35,081 nucleotides of DNA from the IMG/VR virus record IMGVR_UViG_3300010370_000113, positions 1 to 35,081 of that record, one strand, 5' to 3'. Under the pieces are notes generated by a model, which worked only from the letters and a program-made list of their open reading frames with translations, was not told the origin of the DNA and searched no databases. Position numbers and translations under genes: made by a program. Shown piece after piece: positions 8,371 to 33,499 of the stretch. The DNA comes from a virus. Position 1 is the first letter of the stretch. Each line of letters begins with the position of its first letter.

Positions 8371-11300
8371 ATGACAGAAAAAAGAATTCAGTTTAATAAC
8401 ATCATCCAGAATCAACTTCCAGCATATATTAGGGAGGAGGTTCCATTAATTGCTGAGTTTTTAAGGCAGTATTACATTTCTCAAGAATTCCAGAGTGCTT
8501 CGACCGATTTAATTCAGAATATTGATCAATACTTAAAATTAGATACTATCAAGAGTAATGCAGAATCAACAACTCTTTTCAGAGACATTACTTTTCTTGA
8601 AGAATCAATTCCAGTATCTAATACACTAGGATTTCCAGATTCTTATGGATTAATTCAGATAGATGATGAAATAATCACATATACTGAAAAAAGAGAAAAT
8701 AAATTAGAAGGAACTGCAAATATTTCGGTTGGATCTACTGTAGTTTTTTATAATGGATTATCTGAAAATTATATTGGTAGAGAATTTAAATTTAAATCTC
8801 CTATTGGAGATACGACAGGAAATCAAATAAAGAATCCAATAATAGTATCTGTATCTGATAGTTATTTCACATTATCCTCTATTGGAATAGCATCTACTAG
8901 TGTCTATGGATATAAAGACGATGACTTATATCCATTTGAAACGAGTGATCCTCAATTTAGTGGGTGTATAAGAGGATTTAGTGGTACAGCATCCTATGGA
9001 AATACAAATGTTGGAATAGCATCAACATTTAAATTGCGATCTCAAGATCAATTAATTTTTAAAGATTCAGAATCTGCAGATCATAGTAAGAAAAATGCTG
9101 ATGGAACTCCTAAAAATGTCATTAATCTAAGTTCCCTTTTCTTAAAAGAGTTCTTCAATAAAATTAAATACCAATTAACACCTGGTTTCGAGCAAAGAGA
9201 GTTTTATAGTTCTTTAGATAAGTATCTGTTCCTTAAACAATCAAAAGATTTTTACTCTACAAAAGGAACGGATCTTTCCTTCCAAATTTTATTCAAAGTA
9301 TTGTATGGCGAAGACGTTAAAATTATAAAACCACAAGATTATCTGATAAAACCATCAGATTCTCAATATGAAATAACTAATGATCTAGTTGTAGAAAGTA
9401 TTTCTGGAAGTCCATATGACTTGGAAAGATCTACATTATATCAAGATGCATATGGAGATATATCTAAAGGTTATGCACCAATAACTAGAGTAGAAAAGAT
9501 TTTTGCAAAGTCTGATAAAGTATATTATAAATTAAGTATTGATGCGGGTTACAATAGAGATATCAATGTTGATGGTTCTCTTTATGGAAACTTTTCAATT
9601 CATCCAAAAACAAGACTTATTGGTAATGTAGTTTCTGGAACTAATACTTTAGATGTAGATTCTACTGTAGGATTTCCCTTACAAGGAGAATTATCAGTAA
9701 TTTATAATGACGGAACTGAAGGAATTATTACATATACTTCAAAGAGTCTAAATCAATTCTTTGGATGCCAAAATATCATAAAATCAATTTCAGATGCAAG
9801 TGATGTTTGGTTAAATGTTTATGCTTATGGCACATCAAATAAAAATTCAAATGAAGTTATTAAAGTAAGAATTACATCCGTTCTTAAAGATTTAGAAATT
9901 GTAGATGATACTTATTATTATAATAATCAAGACACTGGTATTATTAGAACTCTTGGCGTAAACCCAGAAGATGCTGTAGTTTCCAATAATTGGATCTTTA
10001 ATAACTCATTATCAATTGAGGTATCTTCAATAACTCTAATTGATAGTACAAATGGAACATATCGATTGGTAACAAAGGTTGATCACGGATTTAGAGTTGG
10101 TGATAACATAAAAATTAATTCAAATAATGGAATTTCAACCCCATCATCAATCACTAATATAGTTTCCGATAACACCATTGAAATTAGTGGTCAGGGGAAT
10201 CTTAATTTAAATGCATCATATTCAATTCAAAGAAATTTACTTAAGGTTAATTCTTCAAAGTATTCTTACTTATCAAATCAAACTACTGATATTCAGAACA
10301 TTTATAAGATTAAAGATAAAACTCTCGTAGCATCTTCATCTCTGCCATCTTATGCAAGTCAGTCTTTAAATGCTTTTGATAGATCTGTTTTATTCAAAGG
10401 GACTTTTATAAATACTGAACTTTCTGGTTATCCAGGACTTACTGACACAATTAATTTGGGATTGGATCATGGATTTTACACTGGAGACAGTATATATTAT
10501 ACGCCATCATCTAAAGATGATTCTTTGTTTGATGAAGGAGTATATATCGTCCAAAGAGTAAACCAAACTACGATTAGATTTGCAAAAAGCAGAGAAAATA
10601 TTTACAAATCTATTAAAGAAAATAAAAATTATTTTGTTAAATTTAAAAGTTCTATCGAATTAAAAAATAATAGCAAAATACAGGATTATGATTTTTATTT
10701 AAAAAAATTAGATTCTCAAAAACTTTTAAGGGAAATCAATCCCCCAGTTAATGATGGAAGAGACTACGAAACAACTCCAGGAACTGTGGGAATTTTAATT
10801 AATGGCGTAGAAATATTAAACTACAAGTCAAAGGATAAAATTTACTACGATTCAATAGAAAATATTAATATTATTAATTCTGGTTCTGGATATGACATTA
10901 TTAACCCACCAACACTGGTAATAACAGATTCTGTTGGAACTGGAGCAACAGGTTATTGTGCGGTTAAAGGTTCTCTTCAAGAAATCCGAATTGTAGATCC
11001 TGGATTTGGTTATTTAGAAACTCCGAAAATTAATATCAGTGGCGGAAATGGAATTGGGGCAAAGGCAAATGCATCAATGAAGTTAATTGATCATAAAGTA
11101 TCATTTAATTCAGAATCTAAATCGGCGTTTGTCAATATTGCAAATAGCACCATTGGATTTTCCACTTATCATAAATTTAGAAATGCGGAGAAAGTAATAT
11201 ACAGAACTAATGCCCAAAAATCAGTAGGTGGCATTTCTACAAATTCTTCATACTATGTTTCTGTAAAGGATTTATTTACAATCAAATTACATAAAACTTA

Positions 11301-14300
11301 TGCTGATGCTTTAGTTGGAGTTAATACTGTAACATTTACTTCTTTTGGCGTAGGAAATCATGATTTAGAATCTGTTAATAAAAAATCAGTAATAGCATCA
11401 ATTAATATAGAAAACAGTGGATTGAATTATGAAAATAAAAAAAGAACTGTGAGTTCTTCTGGCATTAGTACGTCACTTGGACATATTTCTATAAAAAATC
11501 ACGACTATCAATCAGGCGAAATTATTAGATACACTACAAGTGGATCACCAATTAGTGGTTTAACCTCGAATACAAATTATTATGTAACTAAAGTTGATGA
11601 TAATAATTTTAAACTTTCTCTAGTTGGAGTAGGAACTGATAATCAAGATTTTTATTATAAAACCAGTCAGTATATTCAATTAAATTCAACTGGATCCGGT
11701 ATTCATGCTTTCAATTATCCTCAAATAAGTGTGGAAGTTGTTGGAAGTGTTGGCATATCATCTTCATTCAAAGCAACAATTCAACCAATTTTTAGAGGAG
11801 AAGTCACCTCTGTTTACTTAGAAAACAATGGTGTTGGTTATGGATCATCTGAAATTATTAATTTCAATAGAATTCCAAACACAACTTTAAATAGTGGATC
11901 TGAAGCGCAACTCCTTCCTATAATCAATGATGGAAAGATCGTTGATATTTTAATCAATAATCCAGGAAGAGATTATAATTCTCCCCCAAATTTAAATATT
12001 TCGACAGGAGGAAATGGATCAGGTGCTGTTTTAACTCCCATATTAGAAAATGGACAGATTAAATCAATTAAAATTATTGAAAGTGGTTCAGGATATGATC
12101 CAAATAATACTTTTATTACTGTATCGTCGGCAGGTGTAGGTGTCGAACTAGACGCAAAACTAAAATCTTGGACAATTAATCTTTTTGCAAAATATTTTAA
12201 CAAAATAACACCTGATGATGGATTTGTTTTCTACAATTCCAATTCAAAATATGGATTGCAGTACACGCATTTATATGCACCAAGAAATCTAAGAGAGAAT
12301 ATTTATGCAAAAGAGAATAGCGGGAAAACTCTTTATGGTACATTTGATTTAATACGACAAAATGGCATTGAAGTTTCTTCCACTAAACATTCCCCAATAA
12401 TTGGGTGGGCATATGACGGAAACCCAATATATGGTCCATATGGATTTTCAAGTAAAAGTGGGGGAAGTATTTCCAGAATGAGATCTGGTTATATTTTTAA
12501 TTCTTTAGTAAATAGACCACCATTTCCAATCGGATTTTTCGTTGAAGATTATGAATACAAAAATGTAGATGATGATACTGTTTTGGATGAGTACAATGGA
12601 AGATTTTGTGTTACTCCAGATTTTCCTAACGGAACTTATGCATATTTTACTACTATTGACGAAACATCTTCAGACTCTTTTGGAAATTACAGACTACCAG
12701 TTTTCCCATACATTATTGGAAATAAATTTAAATCCACCCCAAATGAATTTAACTTCAGTAGGTTCTCAAACCAAGATGATATTAATTTAAATGAGACGAA
12801 ATGGGCAAGAAACACATCACAATATAATTTACTTAAAACTGGTTCATCTTATCCTTACTTATCATTACCAAATGATTTAGATCAAACGATTGATATCAAA
12901 TATGCTTCTTCCGGTTTTATTGAAAATGTTGATATTATAAATGGAGGATTAAACTATAAAGTAAATGATAAGGTAATTTTTGATGATGAAGGAACTAGTG
13001 GGTTTGGATTTGCATCGAAAGTTTCTAGAATTGGCGGAAAAACTATAAACTCTATTAGTGTAGCAAATACAACCATTTATAATGCAGAAATTTACTCTCT
13101 TGAAGGAGGTAAAAATTCATTAATTGTTCAATCTGATTCTCCACATAATCTTACAAATACAGATCTTGTTGCTATTTCCGGATTAAATACCACTTCATCA
13201 TTAATTGGAGGATCATATACTATAGGTGTTTCAACAAATATCCTATCTGTTTCAAATCCTTCTGGTATAGGATCAGTGGGAGTAACTGGAATAGTTACAT
13301 TTATTTCTGTAGGGGGAAATCTTTCTCCTTCTTCCATAAGAGAAAATGATATTTACAGAATTGGAAACGAAAAGGTCAAGATTTTAAATGTAGATAGAAA
13401 TTCATCTAGAATTAGAGTTTTAAGATCTGTTGAAGGAAGTGTTGGTTCTGCCCATAGTTATACTGGTGTTTTGTATGAATCTCCTAGAAGATTCGCCATA
13501 AATGCAGGTGATACTACTTCATATGCATATAAAGCAAACAAAGAAATCTACTTTAATCCAAAAGAGTCTCTTGGCGTTGGAACTATTTCTGGAGTAGGAA
13601 TTGGTTCCACTTTAACATTCTCAAATCCAGGGGTAGGGATCACTCAAATTTTTATTCCCACAAGAACAATTTATTTTCCAAATCATAATTTGGAAACGGG
13701 AGATTCTCTAATTTATTCGACCAATATAGGAACTTCAATTTCGGTTTCAAATAATGGGATGTCTTCGTGGATTCTTAATGATCAGTCTGTTGTTTATGTT
13801 GCAAAGATTACAAATGATTTGATTGGAATATCCACGGTAAAAGTCGGTCTTGGATCTACCGGAACCTTTGTAGGAATTGCTACCACAACTACTTCCTCCA
13901 GTATTCTATACTTTACCGGAATTGGAACTGGTACATATCATAGCTTTAAAACAAATTATCCAAAACTTTCGGGTCAAGTATCAAAAAATATTGTAACTGT
14001 TTCCACTGCACAAACACACGGACTTGCAAATAATGATGATGTCTTTGTAAATGTAAGTCCGGGAATTTCTACTTCAATCATAATCAAATATGATGATACT
14101 AACAGAAAAGTTCTAGTAAATCCAAGATCTTTTATTTCCAGTGATGTTGACGTAATTTCAAATTCAATATTAATTACAAATCATAATTTTGAAAATGGAC
14201 AAAAAGTTGTTCATACCTCAACATCTCCTTCTGGTGGTCTGACTAACAATAAAATTTACTATGTTGTAGTTTTTGATAGGAATACTGTAAAGTTATCTCC

Positions 14301-17300
14301 TTCATACTATAGTGCAACAAGTTTAAATCCAGAAATAATTAATATCACTTCAGCATCAAGTGGAACTTTATCCGCAGTAAATCCCCCAATTAAAGTTTAT
14401 AAAAACTCAACGGTAACTTTTGATCTATCAGATTCTTCTCTTTCATATCTCAATGGATTAGTTAAATATTCTGCATTTGAATTAAACTTCTATATTGATT
14501 CAAATTATACTCAAATCTTCGATAAATCAGAATTTAGTAAAGCATTTGAAGTTACAAAATCAGGAAATGTTGGAATAGATGCTAATGCAAAAGTTACATT
14601 AAATGTAACTGAAGATATTCCGGAAAAGTTATATTATAAATTAGACCCTGTTTATGATAACATTCTTCCTAAAGTAAAAGAAGAAGTTAATATTGATACT
14701 TCTGTTAATGAAAATAATGAGATACAAGTTACTTTTAGTGGATATAATGGAAAACATAGAGTTGTATCAACTTCTTCTACTTCATTTACATATAATCTAG
14801 AAAGAATTCCAGAATCTTATTCTTATAATTCTTCTTCGAAGTTGGAATATGAGACAACATCTTTAACTGCACTTGGACCTATTTCTAGAGTTAATATAAC
14901 ATCAAAAGGTCAAAATTATATAAATCTTCCAAAGTTTTCTTTAGTTGCATCAATTTATGGAACTGGGGCTATTTTAGAAGCATTTAGTAAGTCGATAGGA
15001 AAAGTTAAAAAAACAAAACTAAATGGTATTGGATTTGATTTCTCATGTGACTTTACGGTAAGACCTAATGTTATTTTTCCCCAAATCTTAAAAATTGAAC
15101 CTTTAAATTCCTTAGAGTCAATTGGCATAACATCAGTGGGAAGAGGATACTCATCGTCGCCTGAACTTATTGTTTTGGATGGTTACACTAAGCAGATTTT
15201 ACCTGAGGTCAATCTCCTATATTCTTTGGGAGATAATTATGTCACTATTTTAAATAATACTTATAGACTTAATGATATAGATCCTATAATTATTCCAACT
15301 CAAAATTCTAATGGTGTCGGAATTTCATCAATTTTATACAACTCAACTACCAAAGATGTCACTGCAACATTATCAGTCGGATTTAGTACAGCAAGTGCTT
15401 TCCCATTTGCAGTAAATGACAAGGTATTGGTTGAAAACATTAGTGTAGGAATTAATTCCACAGGAAAAGGTTATAATTCCGAAAACTATAATTATCAATT
15501 GTTCACTATTACTGCAATTAATGCCAATATTGGCGGAACTGGAAGTGTAACTTATAATTTAAGTAATTCTTTGAATAGTGGAGAAGAACCAGGAACTTTT
15601 GATGCTGTTAATTCTTCCGGAAGAATTATTCCAGAAAAATATTTCCCACAATTTAAAGTAATTTTAAAAAGAAATAACTTCTTAAAAAACGAGAGTGTTA
15701 GATATTCAAATCAACCAACTTCTTTAGGATTTGTGAAAGATTGGAATGAAAAAATCAAATACTTAAAAGTTTCTTCAAGAGAAATTTTAGAAGAAGGAAA
15801 GATTTTAGAGGGAGATTCTTCAAAAACTCAAGGAAGAATTTCTTCTGCCATTAAATCAAATGGGTTTATTAACACTGGTTCATATTCAAAATCAGAAAAT
15901 GGTTGGGTAACAGAAACGGGAACTTTAAATAATAACTTACAGAGAATTCAAGACAATTTTTACTATCAAAATTTCTCATATTCATTAAAATCTAAAGTTC
16001 CATATGATACATGGGAAAATGCTGTTGGATCGCTGAATCATACTGCAGGATTTAAAAAGTTTAGTGATTATCAATTAGAAAGTTTTGGATACTCTGGGAT
16101 TAGCACTGATGTAGTTTCTATTGTAGATGCAACTGTAGACCTTTATGGAACTGCAAATTTAAACTGTGTGTACGATTTTGATCTCGCAAGAGAAAATGTA
16201 TTAAATATAGAGTCCAAAACTTTTTCAGATGAAATATTATTTTCAAGTAGAATATTAAAGAACCATTTTGAATCTTTTGGTAACAGAGTATTATCAATTG
16301 ATAATATCAGTGACAAATTTAATAATAATCAGCGTTTCACAAATTTTTTAATTGCACATAGATTTTTATTATCTGATATCAGAGCTCAAAAGTATATTAC
16401 CTATGTAAAGGACAGGCAATACCCTTCACATAGACAATTAATGCTTTTTACTTTATTGCATGATGGCAATGTAGGATATTTAAATCAGTATGGTAGAGTG
16501 GAAACACGCTATGATTTAGGTTCTTTTGATTTTGATATTGATACGGATGAAGGATTAATTCTTTTCTACCCAGCAGATTATAAAAGTAATAATTATAATG
16601 TCACGGTGTTATCGTACAATTTAAAAGATAATTTTGCAGGGGTGGGAAGCACAACTCTTGGTAATATTGTAAAGATTGATACAAACACTACATTCGTCTC
16701 ATCTGGGTCAACCACTATTGTTGGACTCGGTACTACTTACACATCTGCCAAAATATTAGTTGAGATTACAGGATCCAATGGGCAATATCAATTTAACGAA
16801 TTGAGTTTGGTTCATGATGGTACAAATGTTGAATTCATTGATTATGGTCAATTGACAACCCATTCTTCAGATGCTTATTCAAGTTCTGGATTGGGAACTT
16901 ATTATGCATATATTTCTGGATCTGATTTAAATATCGATTTTACTCCAAATGTTGGGTTAGCAGCTTCTATTAGCACTATTCAAGTAGCTATTGCAAATAC
17001 ATCATCGTCTGGAATAGGTACATTTGATATTAAGTATGCTCGATTTGGTGCAGCATCAACTTCAATTGCATCAACATCATCCCCAACTGCAAATGTAATA
17101 TCCGAATATCCTGATAATTATGATGCAGCGTACTATATTGTTCAAGTATCCGATATTACAAATAATAGACATCAATTATCAGAGGTAGTAGTTGTCAATG
17201 ATGATAGTGGTGACACTTATATTACAGAATTTGGAAATATTGAAACACATTCTGGTCTTGGTACAGTTGGTGTTGTTACTACTACAAATTCTACCAGATT

Positions 17301-20300
17301 GACATTTACGCCTCTTCCTAATATTGAAACTAATGTGAAGGTATATTTCAATTCTTTAGTAGACTTAGATGAGATTAATTCACTAACAGAATATAATAAC
17401 AATACGGCATCAACAGATTATGGAATTTATTATGGAACAGAAATAGATCTGAGACGTGATTTTAATTTAACACATGGTGGTATTCCAATTTTCCAAAGGT
17501 ATTTTGATGGAAGTGATTCTTCAACAGTAAGTATAGAATCTAATACTATTAAAATTCAAAATCACTTTTTCGTGACTGGAGAAAGGATTACATATTCTCC
17601 AGGAAATCCTGGAGAAACTTCTGTTGCAATTGGAATAGGATCTACTGATTTTGGAGTTGGAATTGGAACAACTGACAAATTACCATCTTCAATTTATGTC
17701 GTTAAGGTTGATGAAAATAATATTAAACTTGCAAGAAGTGCGGAAGATGCATTAAAATTTGTTCCAAATACCCTTAATATAACCTCAGTTGGTATTGGTA
17801 CTAATCACACATTTACCTCGACCAAACAGAATGCAAAGTCTATTATTTCTATTGATAATGTTATTCAGTCTCCTGTCGTGTCTACATCACTAACAACGCA
17901 TTTAGTATCAAATTTACCAATATCTAGAGATATATTATATTCAAATTCTGCTGTTGGACTATTTATTGGCGATTTAATTAAGATTGATGATGAAATAATG
18001 AAAATTGAATCTGTTGGCGTTAATGGCACAAATTCTATTTCTGTTTTGAGGTCATGGCTTGGAACTAAAGTCAATGCACATGCTAATGGATCATTAATCA
18101 CAAAAATAGAAGGTGATTATAACATTGTAGGAAATACTATAAATTTTGTTTCTTCTCCATACGGAAATGTCCCCCTCAGCACAACAACAAATTCTCCAGA
18201 TGAAAGAGATTGGTCTGGAATTACTTCATCATCTTCTTTCCATGGAAGAGTGTTTATGAGATCTGGAATTGAGGATTCATCTAATGAATCTTATTATAAA
18301 AATTATATTTTTGATGATATTTCTTCTTCATTCACCGGGTCTCAAAAAGCATTCGCTTTAACTTCAAATGGTGTAAATGTATCTGATGTTTTCGAAGATA
18401 ATGCAGTAATACTTGTTAATGAAATATTCCAAGAACCTGGATTATCGAATAATTATACTTTATCGGAAACATCTGGGATAACTTCCGTCACATTTGTAGG
18501 AACTGCAACTTCTCTTGCCTCTGATATCAATACATCAAATCTTCCCATTGGTGGAATAATTGTTTCTGTTGGTTCCACAGAAGGTTTTGGTTATCAACCT
18601 TTAATTTCTGCTGGAGCAACGGCAACAGTATCTATTGCTGGGACTATAGCTGCTATTAGTATTGGAAATAGTGGATCTGGATATAGATCCACTATCCAAA
18701 CACCTACCGGCATTTCTAACATAACTGTAAGAGTTGGTGTTGCAACTTCATCAACAGGAATTCCAAATATTCAATTTATTGGTACTGCAGCAGTAAGCAA
18801 TGGAAATATTGTAAGTATTGCTATAACTAATCCGGGCGCTGGATACACTTCATCTAATCCACCTCGCGTGATTATTGATCCACCAATTTCATATTCTGAC
18901 ATTCCATTAATTTATAGTTCAACTTCATCTGGAATTGGAACCAGAGCAACGATTGATGTTGTAGTTGGACAAGGATCTAGTGTAATTGAATTTGAAATTA
19001 AAAATGCAGGATATGGATATGTGGTTGATGATGTTTTAACACTTCCTATTGGAGGTTCTACGGGCATTCCAACAACTTCAAATTATTTAACTACAAAAGA
19101 ATTTCAAATTTCTGTTAAAAGTGTAGAGAAAGATAAATTCTCTGGATGGTCCGTTGGTGAATTGGAAGCATTTGATAAAATTCAAAATTTATTTGATGGA
19201 AATAGGACTATTTTTCCATTATCTTATAACGGATCAATAATTTCAGTTTATGCCAAAAAAGGATCGCCGATTAATATTCAAGATACACTTTTGGTTTTTT
19301 TAAATGATATTTTACAAGTTCCCGGAGAAGGTTATATATTTAATGGTGGCAGTAATATTCAATTCACTGAATCACCAAAACCAGAAGATACTTGCAAAAT
19401 TATCTTCTACAAAGGGAGCGGAGAAGGTGTTGATGTTATATTCCGCGAGGTTGTTGATACTGTAAAACCAGGCGATGACTTACAATTAACTTACGATTCG
19501 TTTATCGGACAGTCAGCATATCTTCTTGAAGATAAGAGAAAAACTATTGATATAGTTTCTATAGAAACTGTAAATACTAATCCTTATTTTGGTCCAGGAA
19601 ACACTTCAGATACAACACTATCTAGACCAGTGAACTGGTATCGCCAAACTGAAGATTTAGTTATTAATGAAAAAGACGTGACTAAAGATAGGGAATTTTA
19701 TGAACCACTCATTTACCCAACGACTTACCTAATTCAACCTGTTGGGGTTGGTTCAACTGTCGTTTATGTTGAAAATTTAAGACCATTCTTTAATGCAACA
19801 AATGAAAATGATGCTTCAATAACTTTCCAAAATAATGTTACTTTTGTTTCTCAAGATTCTAGAGTGGCAGCAAGCGCAACTGCTATTGTATCCATAGCAG
19901 GTACTATTTCATCGATTAATATATTGAATGGCGGATCTGGATATAAAACTCCACCTAAAGTTTCTATTCAGAATCCAATCGGAATAGGAACAACAACTTC
20001 TACTGCAATTTCTTCTATAACATCAGGTATTGTCACATCAATTTCTATAGTTGGTGTTGTTTCTGGTTACTCATCGATTAATCCCCCATCAGTGCTTATT
20101 GATCCACCAACACTTAATGTTGAAAGTAATAAGGTAGTATCTTATGAGGGCGACTTTGGAATTATTACTGGTATTTCAACAACTTCTGTGGGAGTGGCTT
20201 CTACTGGAATCGTTTTCGACTTCTTTATTCCACAAAATTCTTCATTAAGAGAAGGATTAATCACTGAAACTACGCCAGTAAGTGAGATACAGACTGGATA

Positions 20301-22265: not shown

Positions 22266-25200
22266 ATGTCTCAAGTCACAAACCTCAACGTATCGCCATA
22301 TTTTGATGATTTTGATGCAAATAATGACTATTATAAAGTTCTTTTCAAACCTGGATATCCAATTCAAGCGAGAGAACTTACAACTTTACAGACTATTCTG
22401 CAAAATCAAGTTGAAAAGTTTGGTCAACACTTCTTTAAAGAAGGTGCAAAAGTTATTCCCGGAAATACAACTTATAATCAATTTTATTACGCCGTAGAAC
22501 TAAACAATAATTATTTGGGAGTTCCTCTAGATGTTTATGTAGATCAACTCGTAGGAGCAAAGATTACAGGACAAACATCCGGAATTACTGCAGTTGTTGA
22601 AAAAGTATTGTTGTCTACAAATTCCGAAAGAGAAAATGTTACATTATATGTAAACTACTTAAGTTCCAGTACTCAAAATAACTCAACAGTTCAGTTTCTA
22701 GATGGAGAAAATCTATCTTCAAATGTAACTATCACTTCCGGTCTTTTAGGAAATACAACTATTGCTGCAGGGACTCCTTTTGGTACTACAATTGCAAGCA
22801 ATGCTACTTCAACTGGATCTTCGTTTTCAATTACTGAAGGTGTTTATTTTATAAGAGGTTACTTTGTAAAAGTAGACACAGAAACTCTTATTCTTGACCA
22901 GTATTCAAATAATCCAAATTATAGAGTCGGTCTATTTGTAAATGAAGAAATTGTTAATTCTGATATTGATGAAACCCTGAGTGATAATTCTCAAGGATTT
23001 AACAACTATGCTGCTCCCGGAGCAGATAGATTAAAAATTTCAGCATCATTATTCAAGAAAGATCTAACTGATTTTAATGACAACAATTTTGTAGAATTAG
23101 CAACAATTATAGATGGCGTAATAAGAACAAAAAGAGACAAGAATGCTTGGGAGGATGACCTAGCAAGAAGAACTTATGCAGAATCTGGGGATTATTATGT
23201 AACTCCTTTTGATTTAAGCGTTAAAGAATCTTTAAATGATGGAGTAGGAAACAGAGGAATATTCAACCAAGGACAGTTTACTTATGGTGGTTCAACTCCA
23301 TCAGAAAATCTTGCTATTTATCAAATTTCTCCAGGAAAAGCATTTGTAAGAGGATATGAAGTTGAAACGGTTTCTCCCACATTTTTAGATGTAGAAAAAC
23401 CAAGAACTACTGCAACTCTCAATAATCTTTCGATCAATTATAACACAGGATCGACTCTTACTTTAAATAGAGTGTATGGATCCCCCACTATTGGGATTGG
23501 AAATACCTATGTATTAAGTTTAAGAGATTCGAGAGTGGGTATTGCGTCAACAACAGCAGCAGGAAAAGAAATTGGTGTCGCAAGAGTATACGATTTCAGA
23601 TTAGAGTCTGGTTCATACGATACAACAAATTCAAATTTAAATCAATGGAATATTTCCCTATATGATGTACAAACAACTACAGAAATTACATTAAACGAAC
23701 CAATTACACTCAATATTCCAAAAATCTTTAAAGGAAAAAACAGTGGTGCAACTGCATTTTTAAAAAATTCCGTAACAAATAGCAAATCTATAGTTTTATA
23801 TCAAAAGAACGGAGAGTTTATCGTCAATGAATCATTTATCATTGATGGTATTGAGAACAATAGAGTAGCAATCGCAATAACTTCATATGGAATTTCTGAT
23901 ATTAAGTCGGTTTATGGTATTGTAGGTACTGCAAAAACTTTTAATGCAGATACTATTCAATCAGATTTTTATAACGTAGGAATTGCTACTATTAGTGCCT
24001 CTAGTGCTGGTATTAGCACGATTACCAGCACTAATCAAAATTTTCCGGGAAAAATAGTTAAAGTTGGCAATCTGGTTAAGTTTAGTAATGGAACATCTTC
24101 TCTACCAGTATACGCTAATGTTGTCAGTGTAGGAAAAACAACCATATCGATTTCTGGAGTTACTACAGTATCTGGTATTAACCAGGGGGGTCTTCCAGCA
24201 TCTACTATTAGTGTATCGGATTTAAAGATTCTTACAACTAATCAATCTCGCTCAACTGATGATACTCTTTACACAGTTTTGCCAAGACCAAATGTAGCAT
24301 CCGTCAATTTAACTGACGCATCATTGACAATTAGAAAAACCTTTAATGTAACTATTTCGGGGAATCAATCAAGTATAGTTAACGCAGGAGAAAACGAAAC
24401 ATTTTTACCATTTGATGAAGAAAGATATTCATTAATTAGATCTGATGGGAGCACTGAGGTCCTTACTTCTGATAAATTAGACTTTCTTTCTGGATCAACT
24501 CAACTTAAAATTTATGGTTTGGGTTCAAATGATACTGCAACACTGGTCGCAACTTTAAGAAAGATTAAACCAAAATCAAAAATTAAGTTAAAAAACAGAG
24601 TTTCTTCAGTAACTATCGATAAATCTAAGTATGAAGGATCTGGAATTGGAGCAACTACATTAGATGATGGATTAATTTATGGAAATTATCCATATGGAAC
24701 AAGAGTTCAAGATGAAAATATTTCCTTGAATGTTCCTGATATTATTAATGTTTATGGTGTTTATGAATCAAAAACAACTGCCAATCCATCAGCACCAACT
24801 CTTGTACTTTCTTCAATAAACGGACCAACAACAAAAACTGTTGATTTAATTATTGGAGAACAATTTACCGGACAGTTGAGTGGTGCAATCGGAGTATGTG
24901 CAGAAAGATTAACCGATTCTCAAATTTCATTTATTCCGTTAAATGAAAACACCTTTAAAGAAGGCGAAACTGTTACTTTTTCGGAATCAAATATTTCTGC
25001 AGTTATTATAACCATAGATGCTCCGAGTTCAAATATTTCATCAAACTTTAAGTTTGATAATGGACAAAAAGGTTCTTTCTATGGATACGGTACAATTAAT
25101 CGCGCCCCATCATCACCAGAACCATCTAAAAAAATAAAAGTTTATTTTGCAAGTGGATATTATCAAAGTTCTGATAATGGCGATATAACGACAATAGAAT

Positions 25201-28200
25201 CATATCGTGGATTTGATTATAAAAAAGAAATTCAAATTGTAAATTCAGTAAGAAACTCTGACATAATTGATATTAGACCTAGAGTTTCTAATTATACTGT
25301 AGTACAAAATTCTCCTTCCCCACTTGAGTTTTATGGAAGAACTTTTGATGGATCAGGAAATTCTTCTGCAAATATTCTAGCATCAGATGAATCCATTGTC
25401 ACTACGTTTTCATATTATCTTGGAAGAATTGACAGAATTTATATAAGAAAAGACGGAACTTTCCAAGTCAAATATGGTGTTCCTTCAGAGAAACCAGAAA
25501 AACCAATTTCTGTTGATGATGCATTAGAAATTGCAACAGTAACTTTACCACCATATCTCTTTGATATTTCTCAATCTTCTGTTCAATTCCTTGAACACAA
25601 GAGATATAGAATGGTTGATATCAAGCAACTTGAAAACAGAATTAAGAACCTTGAATACCATACTGCATTATCAATGCTTGAATCAAATACTGCAAATCTA
25701 TTTGTTCCAGATGCAGATGGATTAGATAGATTTAAGTCTGGATTTTTTGTTGATAATTTTAGTTCATTGAATTCTCAAGAAAATGGACTTCCATTTGAAA
25801 ATAGTATTGATCTTAAAAATAAAGAATTAAGACCAAAACACTATACTACTGCAATTGATTTAATTCAGGGTCCAGTAGAAGGTTTAGATCCTCAAGCAGA
25901 TCTTGCTTTCGAAACTCCAGAAGGAAATAACATCAGAAAAACTGGAGATTTAATCACACTTGATTATGCAGAAGTTGAATGGTTGAAGCAATCTTTTGCA
26001 ACTAGAACTGAAAATGTAACGCCATTTGTTATTAGTTTCTGGCAAGGAACAATTGAGCTTACTCCAGCAACTGACACTTGGGTTGATACTGTTAGGTTAG
26101 ATGCCAAAATTATTAATGTTGAGGGAAACTATGCTCAGACAATGGCTCTTGCCCAACAGCAGTTTAACGTAGATCCGCAAACTGGATATTCTCCGACAGT
26201 ATGGGGGGCATGGGAAACTAATTGGACAGGTAAAGAAGTTATTGAAACTGTACAAACACAATCAAATACTACTTACAATTATGGATATTATGGATGGCAC
26301 TATGGATATTATGGATATTATGGATATTATGGATATTGGGGATGGAATAGAGGTTATGCAACAACCACTGTCACTCAAGATACATATAGACAAGTCAAAG
26401 AAACTGGCGTTCAATCGAGAACAGGTGCAACAACTTTTGTTACCGAACAGTTTGATAGACAATCAGTTGGGGATAAAGTTGTAAGTAGAGATTTAGTTCA
26501 ATATTTAAGATCAAGAAATATTCAATTTACATCTAAAAATGTAAAACCATTAACTCAACTTTATGCATTCTTTGATGGAATTGATGTGACAAAATATTGC
26601 ACTCCAAAGTTACTAGAAATCAGTATGATTTCTGGAGTGTTTCAGGTTGGAGAAACTGTTATTGGAACAACTAGAGAAACTGGGCTTGGAGAAAATTGGA
26701 GGGAATCTAGTCCTAGAATTACCTTCAGAGTTGCCCAATCAAATCATAAAGAGGGTCCTTATAACGCCCCAACTTCAACATATTCATTAAATCCATATAC
26801 AAGTCAAACTCTTGCTGCAACTTATTCATCTACCAGTAGTACTTTAAATATTGACATATTCTCTCTATGTACACAGTATCAAGGAGAATATAGTGGTTGG
26901 GTTCAGTCGGGAATGACCTTAGTTGGAAAAACAAGCAGAGCTCAAGCAACAATTACAAATGTAAGATTGGTTTCTGATGTTTACACTTCACTGATTGGAA
27001 GTTTTTATATTCCAAATCCAAATATTTCAGTTAATCCTAGATTTGAAAATGGTTCAAAAACTTTTACCCTAATAAACAATACTATTAATGATAGAAATCT
27101 TGCATCAACTGTTGCAGAAGAGAAGTTTATTTCTACTGGAACTTTAGAAACAGTACAAGAGAATATCATTTCGACTAGAAACGCAAGGATAGAACAAAAA
27201 CAGAACATTCAAAATCAAAATGTTTCTAGAACATCCGGTACACAATTAGTAAAAAGTAATGTTATTTCCTCAACAACTAATTGGTATAGATGTCCTTGGT
27301 GGGATCCTCTTGCACAATCATTCTTAGTTCAAGATGAGAGTGGAATTTTCCTCACAAAATGTGATATATTCTTTAAATCAAAAGATGATGCTGATATTCC
27401 CGTATTGTTCCAGATTAGAACAATGCAAAATGGTTATCCAACACAAACGGTTATTCCATTTTCCGAAATTATATTAGACCCAGACCAAGTAAATATTTCA
27501 AATGATGGATCTGTTGCAACTTCATTTGTGTTCAAGTCACCAGTATATCTAGAAGGTGGAAAAGAATATTCGATCGTTGTTGGATCAAATTCCAATAAGT
27601 ACAATGTCTTCATCTCTAGAGTTGGTGAGGTCGATCTATTAACCCAATCATATATATCAAATCAACCTTATCTTGGATCTTTATTTAAGTCCCAAAATGC
27701 TTCAACTTGGGAGGCAAGTCAGTGGGAAGACTTAAAGTTCACTCTTTATAGAGCAGATTTCTTAAGTTCCGGTAGCGTAGAATTCTACAGTCCAGAACTT
27801 TCTCCAGGAAACTCTCAAGTTCCCATATTATTACCAAATTCATTAAGTCTTAATTCCAGAAAAGTTAGAATTGGATTATCAAGTGCTGTTCAAGATACTG
27901 GATTAGTTTTTGGCAATAATGTTTTGCAGCAGGGAACAAACGCAACTGGTAATTATGTAGGAAATGCGGGAATTGCCACAGGAACACTTCAGGTTATCAA
28001 CTCAGGAATTGGTTACACTCCATCTTCAGGAAGTTTTACTTATACAAACATAGATTTAATCTCCATAACTGGAAATGGAAGAAATGCAAAAGCAAATATT
28101 ACCATTTCAAATGGAGTTGCAATAGCTGCTACTGTTTCTACATCTGGCAATGGATATCAAGTTGGCGATGTGCTTGGTATATCTACTTTAGGATCTTCTC

Positions 28201-29771
28201 CTGTAGGTAGAAATGCGTTGTTCTCTCTAGTTTCTATTGCAAGTACAAACGAACTTATTCTGGATAATGTTCAGGGAGATTTTTCAATTGCAGGAACTGG
28301 CAAAACTGTACAGTATATTAATAGTTCTGGAATAACAACAAATCTGAATTCATCGTCTGGCGGAAATGTTCAAATTTCAGATATTAATGTAGTGAGCGAT
28401 GGTTTACACATTGTGGTAAATCATAAGAATCATGGAATGTATTTTGACGATAACTATGTAAGAATTTCCGGAGTAGAATCAGATATTCCACCAACAAAAC
28501 TAACATCAAATTATGCTTTTGATTCTGTAGGATCCATTTCAATTCAGAATTCTTCTAACTTTACAACTTTCGAAAATGTTGGCGTCGGAACAACAAATCC
28601 AGGTTATGTACTAATTGGAAATGAATTGTTTGAATATGAATCAGTTTCTACTGGTTCTTTAGATAATATTACTAGAATTGGTTACATTGATCCAACATTC
28701 TTTAATACTCTTCCTTCCGCATCAGTAACACATCTAGCAGGAACACCAGTTTATAAGTATGAGTTGGGAGGTGTTTCTTTGAATAGAATCAACACCACAC
28801 ATTATCTCGCAGATGCTACTGTTTCTAATCCAATAACATTTGATTCTTATAATATTAAAATTCAAATGGATGAAAATGGAACGAATAGAACTGATGAAAC
28901 ATATTTCCCCAAACTATATTTGAATCAAACAAAGTCTGCAGGTGGATTTAATATTAAGGCAACACAAAATATTCCATTTGAAATTATCACCCCATCGATA
29001 CAAAACATCACCGTACAGGGAACAACAATTAACGCGGAAATTAGAACTATTACAGGTTCCAGTATTAGTGGCAATGAAACACCATTTAATGATAGTGGAT
29101 TTGAACCAATTGCACTAAATAAGTCTACTTATTTTACAAATCCAAAGATCATTGCTTCTAAAATAAATGAAGATGCGAAATTGCAATCATTAATGGGCAA
29201 AAAATCTATGAATTTGAGGTTGTTCTTAAATTCTGTAGATACTAGAGTAAGTCCGGTCATTGATACCCAAAGAGTCAGCGCAATACTGACATCTAACAGG
29301 ATTGACAAAGTAATTGATAATTATGCAACTGATAATAGAGTTAATACAATTGGAACAGATCCATCATCATTCCAATATATTTCTAAAGAAATTAATTTAG
29401 AAAATCCTGCTACTTCAATTAAGATTTTATTAGACGCTCATATCAATAACTACTGCGATATTAGAGCATTTTATGCCATTGGAGGAGATCAGAACTTTAT
29501 TCCAATCTTTACTCCTTTCCCTGGTTATAATAATCTTGATGTCAAAAAGCAGATTATAAATTTTGAGAATAGTGATGGATTACCAGATGTGTTCATCCAA
29601 CCATCACTTTCATTTGGATTTGATTCTGGAAATATTGATTTTAAAGAGTATACCTTTACTGCCGATCAATTGCCATCATTTAGATCATATAGAATTAAAT
29701 TAGTTCTCACATCGACAAGTCAGGTTTATCCTCCAAGAGTTAGGAATCTAAGAGTAATCGCCCTTGCGTAA
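22266..29771 (+). CDS. Very large DUF4815 virion protein, 2501 aa, gp10 position
   Basis: The N terminus is a DUF4815-type domain: YFDDFDANNDYYKVLFKPGY, then IQARELTTLQTILQNQVEKF (about 12-52). VYFIRGYFVKVDTETLILD follows near 193, TYAESGDYYVTPFDLSV near 303, and PGKAFVRGYEVET near 356. A helical stretch (MVDIKQLENRIKNLEYHTAL, near 1117) precedes WLKQSFATRTENVTPFVISF (about 1240) and a YGY-rich loop at 1336-1366. WWDPLAQSFLVQD near 1678 starts a conserved sheet-rich domain found in many large phage tail proteins. The last 600 residues carry GxGY, HGM and RG-like modules. Its place after gp8 suggests it does the work of T4 gp10 and outer tail fibre adaptors, but only the DUF4815 assignment is firm. 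It starts six bases after gp8. Confidence 0.85.
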   Translation: MSQVTNLNVSPYFDDFDANNDYYKVLFKPGYPIQARELTTLQTILQNQVEKFGQHFFKEGAKVIPGNTTYNQFYYAVELNNNYLGVPLDVYVDQLVGAKITGQTSGITAVVEKVLLSTNSERENVTLYVNYLSSSTQNNSTVQFLDGENLSSNVTITSGLLGNTTIAAGTPFGTTIASNATSTGSSFSITEGVYFIRGYFVKVDTETLILDQYSNNPNYRVGLFVNEEIVNSDIDETLSDNSQGFNNYAAPGADRLKISASLFKKDLTDFNDNNFVELATIIDGVIRTKRDKNAWEDDLARRTYAESGDYYVTPFDLSVKESLNDGVGNRGIFNQGQFTYGGSTPSENLAIYQISPGKAFVRGYEVETVSPTFLDVEKPRTTATLNNLSINYNTGSTLTLNRVYGSPTIGIGNTYVLSLRDSRVGIASTTAAGKEIGVARVYDFRLESGSYDTTNSNLNQWNISLYDVQTTTEITLNEPITLNIPKIFKGKNSGATAFLKNSVTNSKSIVLYQKNGEFIVNESFIIDGIENNRVAIAITSYGISDIKSVYGIVGTAKTFNADTIQSDFYNVGIATISASSAGISTITSTNQNFPGKIVKVGNLVKFSNGTSSLPVYANVVSVGKTTISISGVTTVSGINQGGLPASTISVSDLKILTTNQSRSTDDTLYTVLPRPNVASVNLTDASLTIRKTFNVTISGNQSSIVNAGENETFLPFDEERYSLIRSDGSTEVLTSDKLDFLSGSTQLKIYGLGSNDTATLVATLRKIKPKSKIKLKNRVSSVTIDKSKYEGSGIGATTLDDGLIYGNYPYGTRVQDENISLNVPDIINVYGVYESKTTANPSAPTLVLSSINGPTTKTVDLIIGEQFTGQLSGAIGVCAERLTDSQISFIPLNENTFKEGETVTFSESNISAVIITIDAPSSNISSNFKFDNGQKGSFYGYGTINRAPSSPEPSKKIKVYFASGYYQSSDNGDITTIESYRGFDYKKEIQIVNSVRNSDIIDIRPRVSNYTVVQNSPSPLEFYGRTFDGSGNSSANILASDESIVTTFSYYLGRIDRIYIRKDGTFQVKYGVPSEKPEKPISVDDALEIATVTLPPYLFDISQSSVQFLEHKRYRMVDIKQLENRIKNLEYHTALSMLESNTANLFVPDADGLDRFKSGFFVDNFSSLNSQENGLPFENSIDLKNKELRPKHYTTAIDLIQGPVEGLDPQADLAFETPEGNNIRKTGDLITLDYAEVEWLKQSFATRTENVTPFVISFWQGTIELTPATDTWVDTVRLDAKIINVEGNYAQTMALAQQQFNVDPQTGYSPTVWGAWETNWTGKEVIETVQTQSNTTYNYGYYGWHYGYYGYYGYYGYWGWNRGYATTTVTQDTYRQVKETGVQSRTGATTFVTEQFDRQSVGDKVVSRDLVQYLRSRNIQFTSKNVKPLTQLYAFFDGIDVTKYCTPKLLEISMISGVFQVGETVIGTTRETGLGENWRESSPRITFRVAQSNHKEGPYNAPTSTYSLNPYTSQTLAATYSSTSSTLNIDIFSLCTQYQGEYSGWVQSGMTLVGKTSRAQATITNVRLVSDVYTSLIGSFYIPNPNISVNPRFENGSKTFTLINNTINDRNLASTVAEEKFISTGTLETVQENIISTRNARIEQKQNIQNQNVSRTSGTQLVKSNVISSTTNWYRCPWWDPLAQSFLVQDESGIFLTKCDIFFKSKDDADIPVLFQIRTMQNGYPTQTVIPFSEIILDPDQVNISNDGSVATSFVFKSPVYLEGGKEYSIVVGSNSNKYNVFISRVGEVDLLTQSYISNQPYLGSLFKSQNASTWEASQWEDLKFTLYRADFLSSGSVEFYSPELSPGNSQVPILLPNSLSLNSRKVRIGLSSAVQDTGLVFGNNVLQQGTNATGNYVGNAGIATGTLQVINSGIGYTPSSGSFTYTNIDLISITGNGRNAKANITISNGVAIAATVSTSGNGYQVGDVLGISTLGSSPVGRNALFSLVSIASTNELILDNVQGDFSIAGTGKTVQYINSSGITTNLNSSSGGNVQISDINVVSDGLHIVVNHKNHGMYFDDNYVRISGVESDIPPTKLTSNYAFDSVGSISIQNSSNFTTFENVGVGTTNPGYVLIGNELFEYESVSTGSLDNITRIGYIDPTFFNTLPSASVTHLAGTPVYKYELGGVSLNRINTTHYLADATVSNPITFDSYNIKIQMDENGTNRTDETYFPKLYLNQTKSAGGFNIKATQNIPFEIITPSIQNITVQGTTINAEIRTITGSSISGNETPFNDSGFEPIALNKSTYFTNPKIIASKINEDAKLQSLMGKKSMNLRLFLNSVDTRVSPVIDTQRVSAILTSNRIDKVIDNYATDNRVNTIGTDPSSFQYISKEINLENPATSIKILLDAHINNYCDIRAFYAIGGDQNFIPIFTPFPGYNNLDVKKQIINFENSDGLPDVFIQPSLSFGFDSGNIDFKEYTFTADQLPSFRSYRIKLVLTSTSQVYPPRVRNLRVIALA
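26301..26336 (+). repeat. Four perfect tandem 9-bp repeats (TATGGATAT)
   Basis: Four exact copies of TATGGATAT lie head to tail inside the DUF4815 gene and encode YGY units. Partial copies flank them. The in-frame unit length allows gain or loss of copies without a frameshift. Confidence 0.9.
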
Positions 29772-29776
29772 TTTAA

Positions 29777-30170: not shown

Positions 30171-30173
30171 ATA
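30166..30173 (+). promoter_or_regulatory. Late promoter of gp13
   Basis: CATAAATA lies 20 bases before the gp13 start and contains the stop codon of the preceding gene. Confidence 0.65.
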
Positions 30174-30193
30174 TTTTTAAAGAGTATAGATAA

Positions 30194-31042
30194 ATGGCGC
30201 AACCATCTACTAGACAAGAACTAATAGATTACTGTAAAAGAAAGCTGGGAGCGCCAGTTCTCGAAATTAACGTTGCCGATGAGCAGATTGAAGATCTTGT
30301 AGATGACGCTGTTCAATTCTTTCAAGAGCGTCATTTTGATGGCGTTTATCCCACGTTTTATAAGTACAAAGTAACTCAAGCAGACATTGATAGAGGGAGA
30401 GCAAAGGGTTTAAGTCAAAATAGCGTTGGAATTGTTACTACAACGGTTAATACAAATATAGTAGGAACTGCAACTACTTTTAATTATTATGAGAATAGTA
30501 ATTATTTACAAGTACCGCCAAATATTATTGGTGTAAATAAGATTTTCACTTTTGATGGCGCTAACACCATTACTCATAATATGTTTAGCGTCAAATATCA
30601 GTTGTTCTTAAATGACATTTACTACTGGGGAACAACTGAACTTTTGAGTTATGCGATGGTTAAAACGTATTTGGAAGATTTGGACTTTCTCTTAAATACA
30701 CAAAAACAAATTAGATTTAATAAAAGACAAGACAGGTTATATCTTGATATTGATTGGGGATCAGTTACCGAAAATCATTTTTTTGTCATTGATTGCTATT
30801 CTACTTTAGATCCAAATGATTATTCGAGAGTTTGGAATGACTCTTTCCTAAAACCCTATCTGACCGCATTAATTAAGAGGCAGTGGGGACAGAATATGAT
30901 GAAATTTACTGGGGTTAAACTTCCCGGTGGAGTTGAGTTGAATGGAAGACAAATGTATGATGATGCCCAAAAAGAGATAGACATTTTAATGGAGAAAATG
31001 TCCAGCACTTACGAACTTCCTCCATACGATATGATTGGTTAA
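30194..31042 (+). CDS. 13: Neck protein gp13
   Basis: This 282-residue protein corresponds to T4 gp13 (309 residues), which with gp14 forms the neck that closes the filled head and accepts the tail. The N terminus MAQPSTRQELIDYCKRKLGA followed by PVLEINVADEQIEDLVDDAV and FFQERHFDGVYP is the signature of gp13 in cyanophages. In the second half, FVIDCYSTLDPNDYSRVWND and LIKRQWGQNMMKFTGVKLPG are also typical. It has its own late promoter. gp14 starts three bases after its stop, so the two neck subunits are made together. It lacks the extra beta modules seen in its neighbours. Confidence 0.93.
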   Translation: MAQPSTRQELIDYCKRKLGAPVLEINVADEQIEDLVDDAVQFFQERHFDGVYPTFYKYKVTQADIDRGRAKGLSQNSVGIVTTTVNTNIVGTATTFNYYENSNYLQVPPNIIGVNKIFTFDGANTITHNMFSVKYQLFLNDIYYWGTTELLSYAMVKTYLEDLDFLLNTQKQIRFNKRQDRLYLDIDWGSVTENHFFVIDCYSTLDPNDYSRVWNDSFLKPYLTALIKRQWGQNMMKFTGVKLPGGVELNGRQMYDDAQKEIDILMEKMSSTYELPPYDMIG

Positions 31043-31045
31043 TCT

Positions 31046-32452
31046 ATGTTAAACCCATTTTTTCTTCAAGGTTCAAAATCAGAACAAGGTCTTATACAAG
31101 ATCTAATTAATGAGCAATTGAGAATGTATGGTGTTGAGATTTATTATCTTCCCAGAAAATATATTACAGAAAAAACAGTAATAAAGGAATTAATAGAATC
31201 AAAATTTACAAATGCATATCCAATCGAAGCATATGTTGATAATATTGATGGATATGGAGATAATCCAACAATATTATCAAAATTTGGAATTCAATCTCTT
31301 AATGAAATAACCCTAACAATATCAAGAGAAAGATTTAAAAATTATATTTCTCCACTAATTAGTAATCAACCAAACATTAAACTATCATCAAGACCAAAAG
31401 AAGGAGATTTAGTTTGGTTTCCCTTAGGTGATCGTTTATTTGAAATAAAATATGTTGAGCACGAAAAACCATTTTATCAACTTCAAGGTCTTTACACTTA
31501 TGAACTAAGATGTGAACTCTTTAGATATGAAGATGAGATTATTGATACTGGTGTAGAGGACATTGATGACAATATAAGTGGAAGTATTGGTGAAGATACA
31601 AAACCAATAGGACCTGTCCAAAAACTTACAATGGTTGGTGTTGGAGTTACTGCATCAGCGATTGTGGGTACTGTAAATGGTGGCGTAAGATTTATCACAG
31701 TGACTAATCGAGGTGGTGGATATACAAGTGTTCCTACAGTTGGAATTTCATCCGCCTCATCAGGAGGAAAAACTGCATCAGCAATTGCGAAGATGATAGG
31801 TGGAATTGTAGTTTGTAATGATAATACAAATCCATCGGCACAATCAGTCCAAAGTGTAGAGATAATTAATCCTGGTTATGGGTACACTGTTGCGCCCGGA
31901 GTAAGATTTATAGGTGGAGGGGGTAGTGGAGCAAAGGCAACAGCAACAATTGGTGATGGAGTAATCGGTATTGTTACAGTTACGAATTCTGGGTCAGGCT
32001 ATGTAACTCCACCTGCAATTGCATTTAGTGGTATTTCTTCAGTATCTGCTGCTGCAACTGCTGTAGTTTCCGCTGCAGGAACAATTACACAAATTAGAAT
32101 TACAAACGCCGGACTTGGATATACTATTGCGCCCACAATAACAATAGCATCACCAAGTTCTACTGGTACAGGAACATTTATTTTTAATGAAGTGGTAACA
32201 GGATCTCAAAGTGGCGTAACAGCAAGAGTAAGGTCTTGGAATGCAATTACTAATGTTCTCGAAGTCTCTAATGTGAATGGACAATTTATTTCTGGAGAAA
32301 ACGTTGTTGGAACAGCATCAAGTGCTTCTTACAAATTAAGATCCATAGACTCTTTTATTGTTAAAGATGGATTTGCTGATAATGATAAAATTGAAGAAGA
32401 AGCAGAAAATATTATAGACTTTAGTGAAAATAATCCGTTTGGAATGCCATAA
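31046..32452 (+). CDS. 14: Neck protein gp14 with inserted GxGY repeat domain
   Basis: The first 180 residues match gp14: MLNPFFLQGSKSEQGLIQDL, MYGVEIYYLPRKYITEKTV, and FWFPLG-like LVWFPLGDRLFEIKYVEHEK, and the last 20 keep the gp14 ending (EEEAENIIDFSENNPFG). T4 gp14 has 256 residues; this one has 468. The surplus lies in the middle: four GxGY units (GGGY near 223, GYGY near 278, GSGY near 316, GLGY near 356), each with a proline-rich step, then an SGVTARV-type unit near 387. The insertion is built from the modules of the giant tail proteins and would probably stand out from the neck, where T4 carries its whiskers. gp13 is the partner. Confidence 0.92.
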   Translation: MLNPFFLQGSKSEQGLIQDLINEQLRMYGVEIYYLPRKYITEKTVIKELIESKFTNAYPIEAYVDNIDGYGDNPTILSKFGIQSLNEITLTISRERFKNYISPLISNQPNIKLSSRPKEGDLVWFPLGDRLFEIKYVEHEKPFYQLQGLYTYELRCELFRYEDEIIDTGVEDIDDNISGSIGEDTKPIGPVQKLTMVGVGVTASAIVGTVNGGVRFITVTNRGGGYTSVPTVGISSASSGGKTASAIAKMIGGIVVCNDNTNPSAQSVQSVEIINPGYGYTVAPGVRFIGGGGSGAKATATIGDGVIGIVTVTNSGSGYVTPPAIAFSGISSVSAAATAVVSAAGTITQIRITNAGLGYTIAPTITIASPSSTGTGTFIFNEVVTGSQSGVTARVRSWNAITNVLEVSNVNGQFISGENVVGTASSASYKLRSIDSFIVKDGFADNDKIEEEAENIIDFSENNPFGMP

Positions 32453-32455
32453 ATA
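32448..32455 (+). promoter_or_regulatory. Late promoter of gp15
   Basis: CATAAATA overlaps the gp14 stop codon (TAA at 32450-32452) and stands 42 bases before the gp15 start, the longest late leader in the block. A weak AT-rich hairpin (32463-32469 with 32478-32484) follows it. Confidence 0.6.
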
Positions 32456-32497
32456 GATTTTATTATGTTTAAATAATAACATAAGGGACTATAAAAT

Positions 32498-33499
32498 ATG
32501 TTTGAGTATTTTTATCACGAAATTTTAAGAAAAACCGTTATTGCTTTTGGTTCTTTATTCAATGAAATTAGTATTAAGCACACTAATAATAGTGGAGCAG
32601 TTACTAATGTCATTAAGGTTCCCCTTGCATATGGACCAACTCAAAAGTTTCTAGCAAGATTAGAACAATCACCAGATTTAAATAAACCAGTTCAAATCAC
32701 ATTACCAAGAATGTCATTTGAATTTACTGGGTTAACATATGACCCAACAAGAAAATCAACAACTACTCAAACATTTACTGCAAAATCAACGGAAGACGGA
32801 AAAGAAACCAAAAAGACATATCTTCCTGTTCCTTATAATATGCAATTTGAACTTAGCATTATGTCTAAGTTAAATGATGATGCTCTTCAAATTATTGAAC
32901 AAATTCTTCCGTATTTTCAACCAGCTTACACTATGAGTATTGAACTGGTCGATATTATCAATGAGAAAAGAGACATTCCTGTGGTTCTTGAAAACATAAC
33001 AATGCAGGATGATTATGAGGGTAATTTTACAACTAGAAGGGTTTTAATTTACACCTTAAGATTTACTGCAAAGACTTACCTATTTGGTCCTGTTTCTTCT
33101 GCAACAAAAGATATTATCAAAAAAACCACTGTTGGATATATTGCGGGAGATATCACGAGTACTCCTACAAGAGAAATTGTATATTCCACGGAACCAAGGG
33201 CAATCAAAAATTATAATGGTAATATAGTTACAAATCTGACAAAAGATATTACAATAGAGGATGTATTAATTACTGTCGATGATGCAAGTTCAATATCATC
33301 TAATACATATCTAGATCTCGAAGGTGAAGAAGTATATGTAAGATCAAAAATCGGTAATATTCTTACTGTTGATAGAGGTAGAGATAATACAACGATAACC
33401 TCACATTTAGCAGGATCTCCGGTCAAATCTATTACGACTACGGATAACACGCTAATTGAAGATGGCGATGACTTTGGATTTAATGGTAGCAATTTATGA
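32498..33499 (+). CDS. 15: Proximal tail sheath stabiliser gp15 with extra C-terminal module
   Basis: The first 230 residues match T4 gp15, the ring protein that caps the tail tube and sheath and joins the tail to the neck. It starts MFEYFYHEILRKTVIAFGSL (T4 has MFGYFY), has VPLAYGPTQKFLARLEQ, the conserved LPRMSFEFTGLTYDP, and IIEQILPYFQPAYTMSIEL, which is nearly the T4 wording. From about 245 on there is an extension not present in T4: a unit with LDLEGEEVYVRS and VDRGRDNTTITSHLAGSPV. That unit also appears in the giant protein and the DUF4815 protein. Total 333 residues against 272 in T4. gp16 starts inside its stop codon. Confidence 0.93.
   Translation: MFEYFYHEILRKTVIAFGSLFNEISIKHTNNSGAVTNVIKVPLAYGPTQKFLARLEQSPDLNKPVQITLPRMSFEFTGLTYDPTRKSTTTQTFTAKSTEDGKETKKTYLPVPYNMQFELSIMSKLNDDALQIIEQILPYFQPAYTMSIELVDIINEKRDIPVVLENITMQDDYEGNFTTRRVLIYTLRFTAKTYLFGPVSSATKDIIKKTTVGYIAGDITSTPTREIVYSTEPRAIKNYNGNIVTNLTKDITIEDVLITVDDASSISSNTYLDLEGEEVYVRSKIGNILTVDRGRDNTTITSHLAGSPVKSITTTDNTLIEDGDDFGFNGSNL

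Follow-up and report, generated by a model that had tools for sequence, protein, structure and literature searches.

In the window, i.e., the whole stretch of 35,081 nucleotides that was analyzed, virion proteins with different cores share small, beta-rich modules. These fall into three families, GxGY (~40 aa), DEI/RG (~50-60 aa) and SGxTA (~50 aa), each of which occurs in several proteins. These viruses have inherited the module set from far back, and it is not the product of ongoing gene mixing, as the modules occupy fixed positions in relatives. The window, an IMG/VR fragment, covers part of an S-SM2-like virion gene cluster of the Kyanoviridae and encodes baseplate and neck proteins of a T4-type cyanophage; such cyanophages are abundant. 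A literature search found no paper on the module set shared by these five baseplate and neck proteins; the addition of small beta domains to virion proteins is already known from Hoc (PMC10385173).

A cyanophage gene cluster with shared modules

The window encodes gp25, gp6, a 4103-aa protein in the gp7 position, gp8, a DUF4815/VrlC protein, gp13, gp14, gp15, and gp16, which are homologous to and syntenic with the Kyanoviridae T4-type virion cluster (gp25-gp6-gp7-gp8-VrlC-gp13-gp14-gp15-gp16). The gene order is that of Synechococcus phage S-SM2, and gene order, modules, and module positions are the same in the baseplate/neck clusters of S-SM2, Bellamy, and P-TIM68. The window nevertheless represents a diverged relative, its gp14 being 66% identical to that of S-SM2. 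Three of the module-bearing proteins are:

8371..20682, plus strand: giant gp7-position protein, 4103 aa (phrog_2885, baseplate wedge subunit, 3717 bits)
20706..22259, plus strand: gp8, 517 aa (Pfam Phage-Gp8, E 1.6e-17; phrog_438)
22266..29771, plus strand: DUF4815/VrlC protein, 2501 aa (Pfam PF16075, E 1.9e-53; phrog_358)

The S-SM2 orthologue of the giant protein has 4156 aa. A PDB sequence search gave no relative of the giant protein, and phmmer matched it weakly to T4 gp7 (E 1.3e-7). A study of pelagimyophages reports that they lack T4 gp7, with VrlC apparently in its place (PMC7029224); in the window, the weak T4 gp7 match lies in the giant protein and not in VrlC.

In an unbiased, family-only scan, 716 sliding-window profiles, each built from the orthologues of one protein, were searched against the other proteins of the window. 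At E<1e-3, matches between proteins numbered 248 (best 1.5e-16), against none on reversed targets, in agreement with the sequence-only reading that proteins with different cores share add-on parts. The significant matches link gp7, gp8, DUF4815, and gp14 with one another, and gp15 with gp7; the gp6 and gp13 profiles had no matches in other window proteins. A GxGY profile seeded with ten gp7 units and nothing else recovered gp14 (E = 1.7e-9 and 1.1e-7) and gp8 (8.5e-4), compared to a best E of 0.018 in 21-fold decoys of locally shuffled or reversed sequence. DEI profiles seeded from gp7 and from DUF4815 found gp15 at 2.5e-12 and 1.7e-13, respectively, and a gp14-seeded SGxTA profile found three DUF4815 copies at 1e-12 or better plus a weak gp7 copy. 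PHROG profile searches gave further cross-hits between module-bearing families, which we counted toward kinship. Agreements in hhalign between the profile pairs dd/deib, dg/gxb, and sgb/sg2b were not independent, because these profiles had absorbed each other's members; the family-only scan is the independent test. One iterated GxGY profile, dominated by 80 gp14 loci, drifted toward gp14 and gave way to a profile from a balanced set.

Units were counted per protein at E<1e-3. The giant protein has 12 GxGY, 8 HGF, and 4 DEI units, gp8 has 1 GxGY unit (residues 229-273), DUF4815 has 1 GxGY, 1 DEI, and 5 SGxTA units, gp14 has 4 GxGY units (residues 191-367) and 1 SGxTA unit, and gp15 has 1 DEI unit. 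These counts reproduce those expected from inspection of the sequence: about a dozen GxGY units in the giant protein, at least one in gp8 and four in gp14, a repeated HGF-type unit in the giant protein, a DEI/RG unit in the giant protein, DUF4815, and gp15, and an SGxTA unit common to DUF4815 and gp14 (with the weak gp7 copy, E 2e-4, in addition). Two proposals fared less well. Of about two GxGY units read in DUF4815, one is clear (residues 1925-1972) and the second (residues 1910-1920) falls below significance. An HGM unit of DUF4815 had been proposed as a relative of HGF, but the profile (E 0.59), profile-profile (hhalign probability 0.5-0.7%), and sliding-window (no match) tests detected no kinship between them. 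The units of gp7, gp8, and DUF4815 are located as follows:

10825..11064, plus strand: GxGY units, gp7 residues 819-898 (giant-seeded profile E 1.2e-15 and 3e-15, these being seeds; family-only cross-hits to gp14)
11770..12144, plus strand: three GxGY units, gp7 residues 1134-1258 (profile and family-only searches)
15079..15525, plus strand: GxGY units, gp7 residues 2237-2276 and 2345-2385 (profile searches)
18613..19074, plus strand: three GxGY units, gp7 residues 3415-3568 (profile and family-only searches; AF2 strand pattern)
19876..20112, plus strand: GxGY units, gp7 residues 3836-3875 and 3883-3914 (profile and family-only searches)
10066..10596, plus strand: HGF units, gp7 residues 566-606 and 691-742 (profile searches)
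11131..11619, plus strand: HGF units, gp7 residues 921-979 and 1032-1083 (profile searches)
13648..14310, plus strand: HGF units, gp7 residues 1760-1819, 1873-1919, and 1926-1980 (profile searches)
17527..17748, plus strand: HGF unit, gp7 residues 3053-3126 (profile searches)
8629..8742, plus strand: DEI unit, gp7 residues 87-124 (DUF4815-seeded profile E 1.3e-9)
9724..9783, plus strand: DEI unit, partial match, gp7 residues 452-471 (DUF4815-seeded profile E 2e-4)
13285..13464, plus strand: DEI unit, gp7 residues 1639-1698 (profile searches)
17956..18105, plus strand: DEI unit, gp7 residues 3196-3245 (profile searches)
15727..15828, plus strand: weak SGxTA-type unit, gp7 residues 2453-2486 (E 2e-4; 3.2e-11 in S-SM2 gp7)
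21390..21524, plus strand: GxGY unit, gp8 residues 229-273 (DUF4815-seeded profile E 1.1e-17; family-only matches)
22533..22658, plus strand: SGxTA unit 1, DUF4815 residues 90-131 (profile searches)
23721..23840, plus strand: SGxTA unit 2, DUF4815 residues 486-525 (gp14-seeded profile E 2.3e-13)
24852..24995, plus strand: SGxTA unit 3, DUF4815 residues 863-910 (gp14-seeded profile E 2e-18)
26601..26672, plus strand: SGxTA partial unit, DUF4815 residues 1446-1469 (E 4.2e-5)
26907..26978, plus strand: SGxTA partial unit, DUF4815 residues 1548-1571 (DUF4815-seeded profile E 8.2e-7)
28038..28181, plus strand: GxGY unit, DUF4815 residues 1925-1972 (family-only matches to gp14 1.4e-6, gp8 1.6e-6, and gp7 1.5e-5)
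28392..28565, plus strand: HGM region, DUF4815 residues 2043-2100 (no detectable HGF kinship)
28584..28760, plus strand: DEI unit, DUF4815 residues 2107-2165 (as seed, finds gp7 up to 7e-20 and gp15 at 1.7e-13)

The gp7 copy closest to gp14 unit 4 is the GxGY unit at residues 3836-3875 (51% over 47 aa), and a family-only profile of the SGxTA-type gp7 region matches gp14 at 1.1e-6. It is very improbable that such likeness arose without common descent, from beta repeats rich in G/S/T that converged or are of low complexity. In favor of this explanation are the shortness of the units and the 50% G/S/T/A content of the gp14 arm, but the shuffled and reversed controls rule out chance or composition as the source of the similarity, and the module classes do not match one another.

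The units fall outside every curated Pfam and NCBIfam model, and even at E 10 none of the Ig-like families in these collections matches them. E1_FCCH (PF16190) stays below its curated cut-off against the HGF unit (13.4 bits vs 29.5, E 0.087). The DEI profile matched solved siphophage tail-tip or minor tail proteins, namely 8vjh_A twice (E 1.5e-6) and the phage JBD30 tip protein 8rk3 (8rk3_o, 0.0039); in siphophages the DEI-like unit is part of a tail-tip protein, whereas in the window it lies within gp7, DUF4815, and gp15.

Modules inserted into gp14 and gp15

In gp14 and gp15, which have T4-like cores, the parts are located as follows:

31046..31555, plus strand: gp14 core without module, residues 1-170, T4 gp14 homologue (PDB 9mkb/9lu4, E 7e-25; Foldseek 9lu5_M, E 7.6e-8)
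31616..32146, plus strand: four GxGY units, gp14 residues 191-367 (profile searches; AF2 pLDDT mostly 85-95)
32183..32326, plus strand: SGxTA unit, gp14 residues 380-427 (profile searches)
32357..32449, plus strand: conserved gp14 C-terminus with DFSExNPFG motif, behind the arm (also in the arm-less HTVC008M gp14)
33236..33433, plus strand: DEI unit, gp15 residues 247-312, an insert ahead of the conserved DDFGF end (E 1.7e-13 and 2.5e-12)

T4 gp14 (head closure Hc2) and cyanophage gp14 have a homologous core (9mkb/9lu4) and differ in overall length and C-terminal region, as a ~250 aa arm is inserted in the cyanophage protein between the core and the conserved DFSExNPFG end. Four GxGY units and one SGxTA unit are present in 7/7 cyanophage gp14 proteins tested (window included), but there are none in T4 gp14 (256 aa) or pelagiphage HTVC008M gp14 (290 aa). 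Similarly, T4 gp15 (tail sheath stabilizer) aligns over the core and lacks the ~65 aa insert of cyanophage gp15. This DEI insert is present in the window, S-SM2, Bellamy, and P-TIM68, and absent from P-SSM2, HTVC008M, and T4; S-SRM01 gp15 as annotated also lacks it but is 5'-truncated behind a homing endonuclease gene. Overall, 73/82 gp15 proteins carry the insert, with three changes on the core tree, and phages that are otherwise alike but differ in this insert provide a natural comparison. Judging from these alignments, the gp14 and gp15 modules are true inserted add-ons, because gp14 and gp15 of T4 and HTVC008M and gp15 of P-SSM2 lack them.

Purified S-SM1 virions were found to contain gp14 (PMC3037559). 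In comparisons with the window, the gp14 arm is 69% identical and the core 80%; the arm is thus conserved and not hypervariable, as a host-range part would be expected to be. The arm is low in charge and rich in G/S/T/A, and its DNA (31613-32356) has 40.7% GC vs 27.6% in the gp14 core; this need not mean foreign origin, as the arm is rich in Gly/Ala codons. The ends of gp14 (32357-32449) and gp15 (33437-33496), behind the inserted modules, carry acidic Phe-Gly motifs (DFSExNPFG and GDDFGF, respectively). These are candidate docking motifs and may serve as such, since proteins without the inserts retain related motifs.

By AF2, the gp14 arm is predicted to form repeated three-strand units (pLDDT mostly 85-95). 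The gp7 units share this strand order at lower confidence, in a poor model of residues 3040-3960 (pLDDT 59, pTM 0.33). No Ig-like relative of the gp14 arm was found in PDB sequences or among convincing Foldseek matches. Against BFVD, the gp14 model retrieved cyanophage structural and baseplate giants, matches to which sequence may contribute, and the low TM-scores are attributed to multi-domain flexibility.

Inheritance and possible role of the modules

In the S-SM2 genome, seven ORFs and no others carry units: the orthologues of the five window proteins, a hub-adjacent virion structural protein, and a tail fibre; a genome-wide scan found none in the sheath, tube, portal, or capsid proteins. 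S-SM2, Bellamy, P-TIM68, and further phages, which infect different hosts, have the same units in matching places. The number of GxGY units in gp7 varies among phages from 7 to 19, so some copies are not fixed. Of the PHROG families that the gp14 arm matches, most belong to virion, baseplate, and tail-fibre proteins, and an arm search of genome contigs gave one match, on a contig of a marine MAG.

Recombination between neighboring genes had been suggested as the source of the sharing, with a surface coat for host binding or decoy as its possible outcome. That it continues to copy modules from gene to gene is unlikely. Such copying would account for modules common to neighboring genes, for the one near tie (gp7 3824-3885, where gp14 unit 4 scores 49 bits and S-SM2 gp7 46 bits), and for mixed branches in a unit tree that otherwise groups by position, namely gp8 with DUF4815 and gp7 (95/94) and gp14 unit 4 with gp7 C-terminal units (92/76). 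However, for 37/38 window units the best match is the orthologue in another phage, mostly by about two-fold or more in bits, and the DNA identity of the best gp7/gp14 copies is 63% when set against the reference copy, while two gp7 copies are 71% identical (range 63-71%); the two tests rule out recent gene conversion. Non-monophyly of the gp14 units is not established as proof of transfer, as their single origin was not rejected (AU p = 0.146). Taken together, these results fit at most ancient dispersal. Dispersal of modules between genes is therefore likely but old, and their present-day inheritance, as the best matches indicate, is vertical.

Our main reading, to which we give a probability of about 55%, combines this old dispersal of the three families and inheritance in place with a mainly structural function. 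The modules would have spread long ago among gp7, gp8, DUF4815, gp14, and gp15 and stayed in position since; in gp14 and gp15 they line up like beads in a linker, with the T4-like core on one side and the short, conserved C-terminal motif on the other. They would face outward and serve mainly as spacers or contacts, making the baseplate and neck of cyanophages larger and stiffer; weak binding to the host surface would be a possible second role. The spacer/contact role is the most likely one because the modules are conserved, fixed in number in gp14, and absent from sheath, tube, portal, and capsid. Against it we counted that the gp14 arm is somewhat more variable than the core, which fits surface binding too, that the units on the tail fibre and hub-adjacent protein would fit adhesion, that gp7 unit numbers vary, and that the gp7 model is poor. 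The main rival is indeed weak adhesion, in which the modules, like the Ig-like domains of Hoc, would provide many low-affinity sites on baseplate, neck, and fibre for cyanobacterial surface polysaccharide. This is possible, though we hold it with some doubt. Small beta modules repeated across several virion proteins, including a tail fibre, the charge-poor, G/S/T/A-rich gp14 arm, and the Hoc precedent (PMC10385173) speak for it, whereas conservation by position in phages of both Synechococcus and Prochlorococcus, the lack of a carbohydrate-binding family match in Pfam or NCBIfam, and the lack of a solved relative of the gp14 arm speak against it. Strings of small beta domains on virion proteins are a feature shared with Hoc/Ig-like decoration (PMC10385173), but Hoc is on the capsid, and the window units matched no Ig-like family by sequence or fold. 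More tentatively, a private cyanophage kit of interchangeable beta modules might decorate both ends of the contractile tail, and not sheath, tube, or capsid, so that the same contacts, be they among the modules or to the host envelope, would work at both.

The modules explain why cyanophage gp7, gp14, and gp8 far exceed T4 lengths, and they are defined units for expression and structure work. They also explain "neck protein" and "head closure" names on module-bearing proteins unlike gp14 in position or size (HTVC008M, metaG-MbCM1). The HTVC008M gp7-position protein (33435-36485), for example, is annotated "head closure Hc2", probably via the GxGY and SGxTA units that it has in common with cyanophage gp14.

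Other features of the window

Left of the structural cluster are a homing endonuclease-like gene (320-1129, minus strand) and an HNH endonuclease gene (4040-4516). DUF4815 carries a Tyr/Gly/Trp-rich stretch at 26268-26370 (NYGYYGWHYGYYGYYGYYGYWGW), and no comparable stretch was evident in the DUF4815 proteins of six relatives. A YHYH domain (PF14240, E 8.2e-21), with a predicted metal-dependent hydrolase role (PMC7824862), lies within the giant protein (12373-12666, residues 1335-1432). The same protein has an additional repeat-like motif, read as VNEIFQEPG near residue 3350 (about 18415-18440) and as LNDILQVPG near residue 3645 (about 19300-19330).
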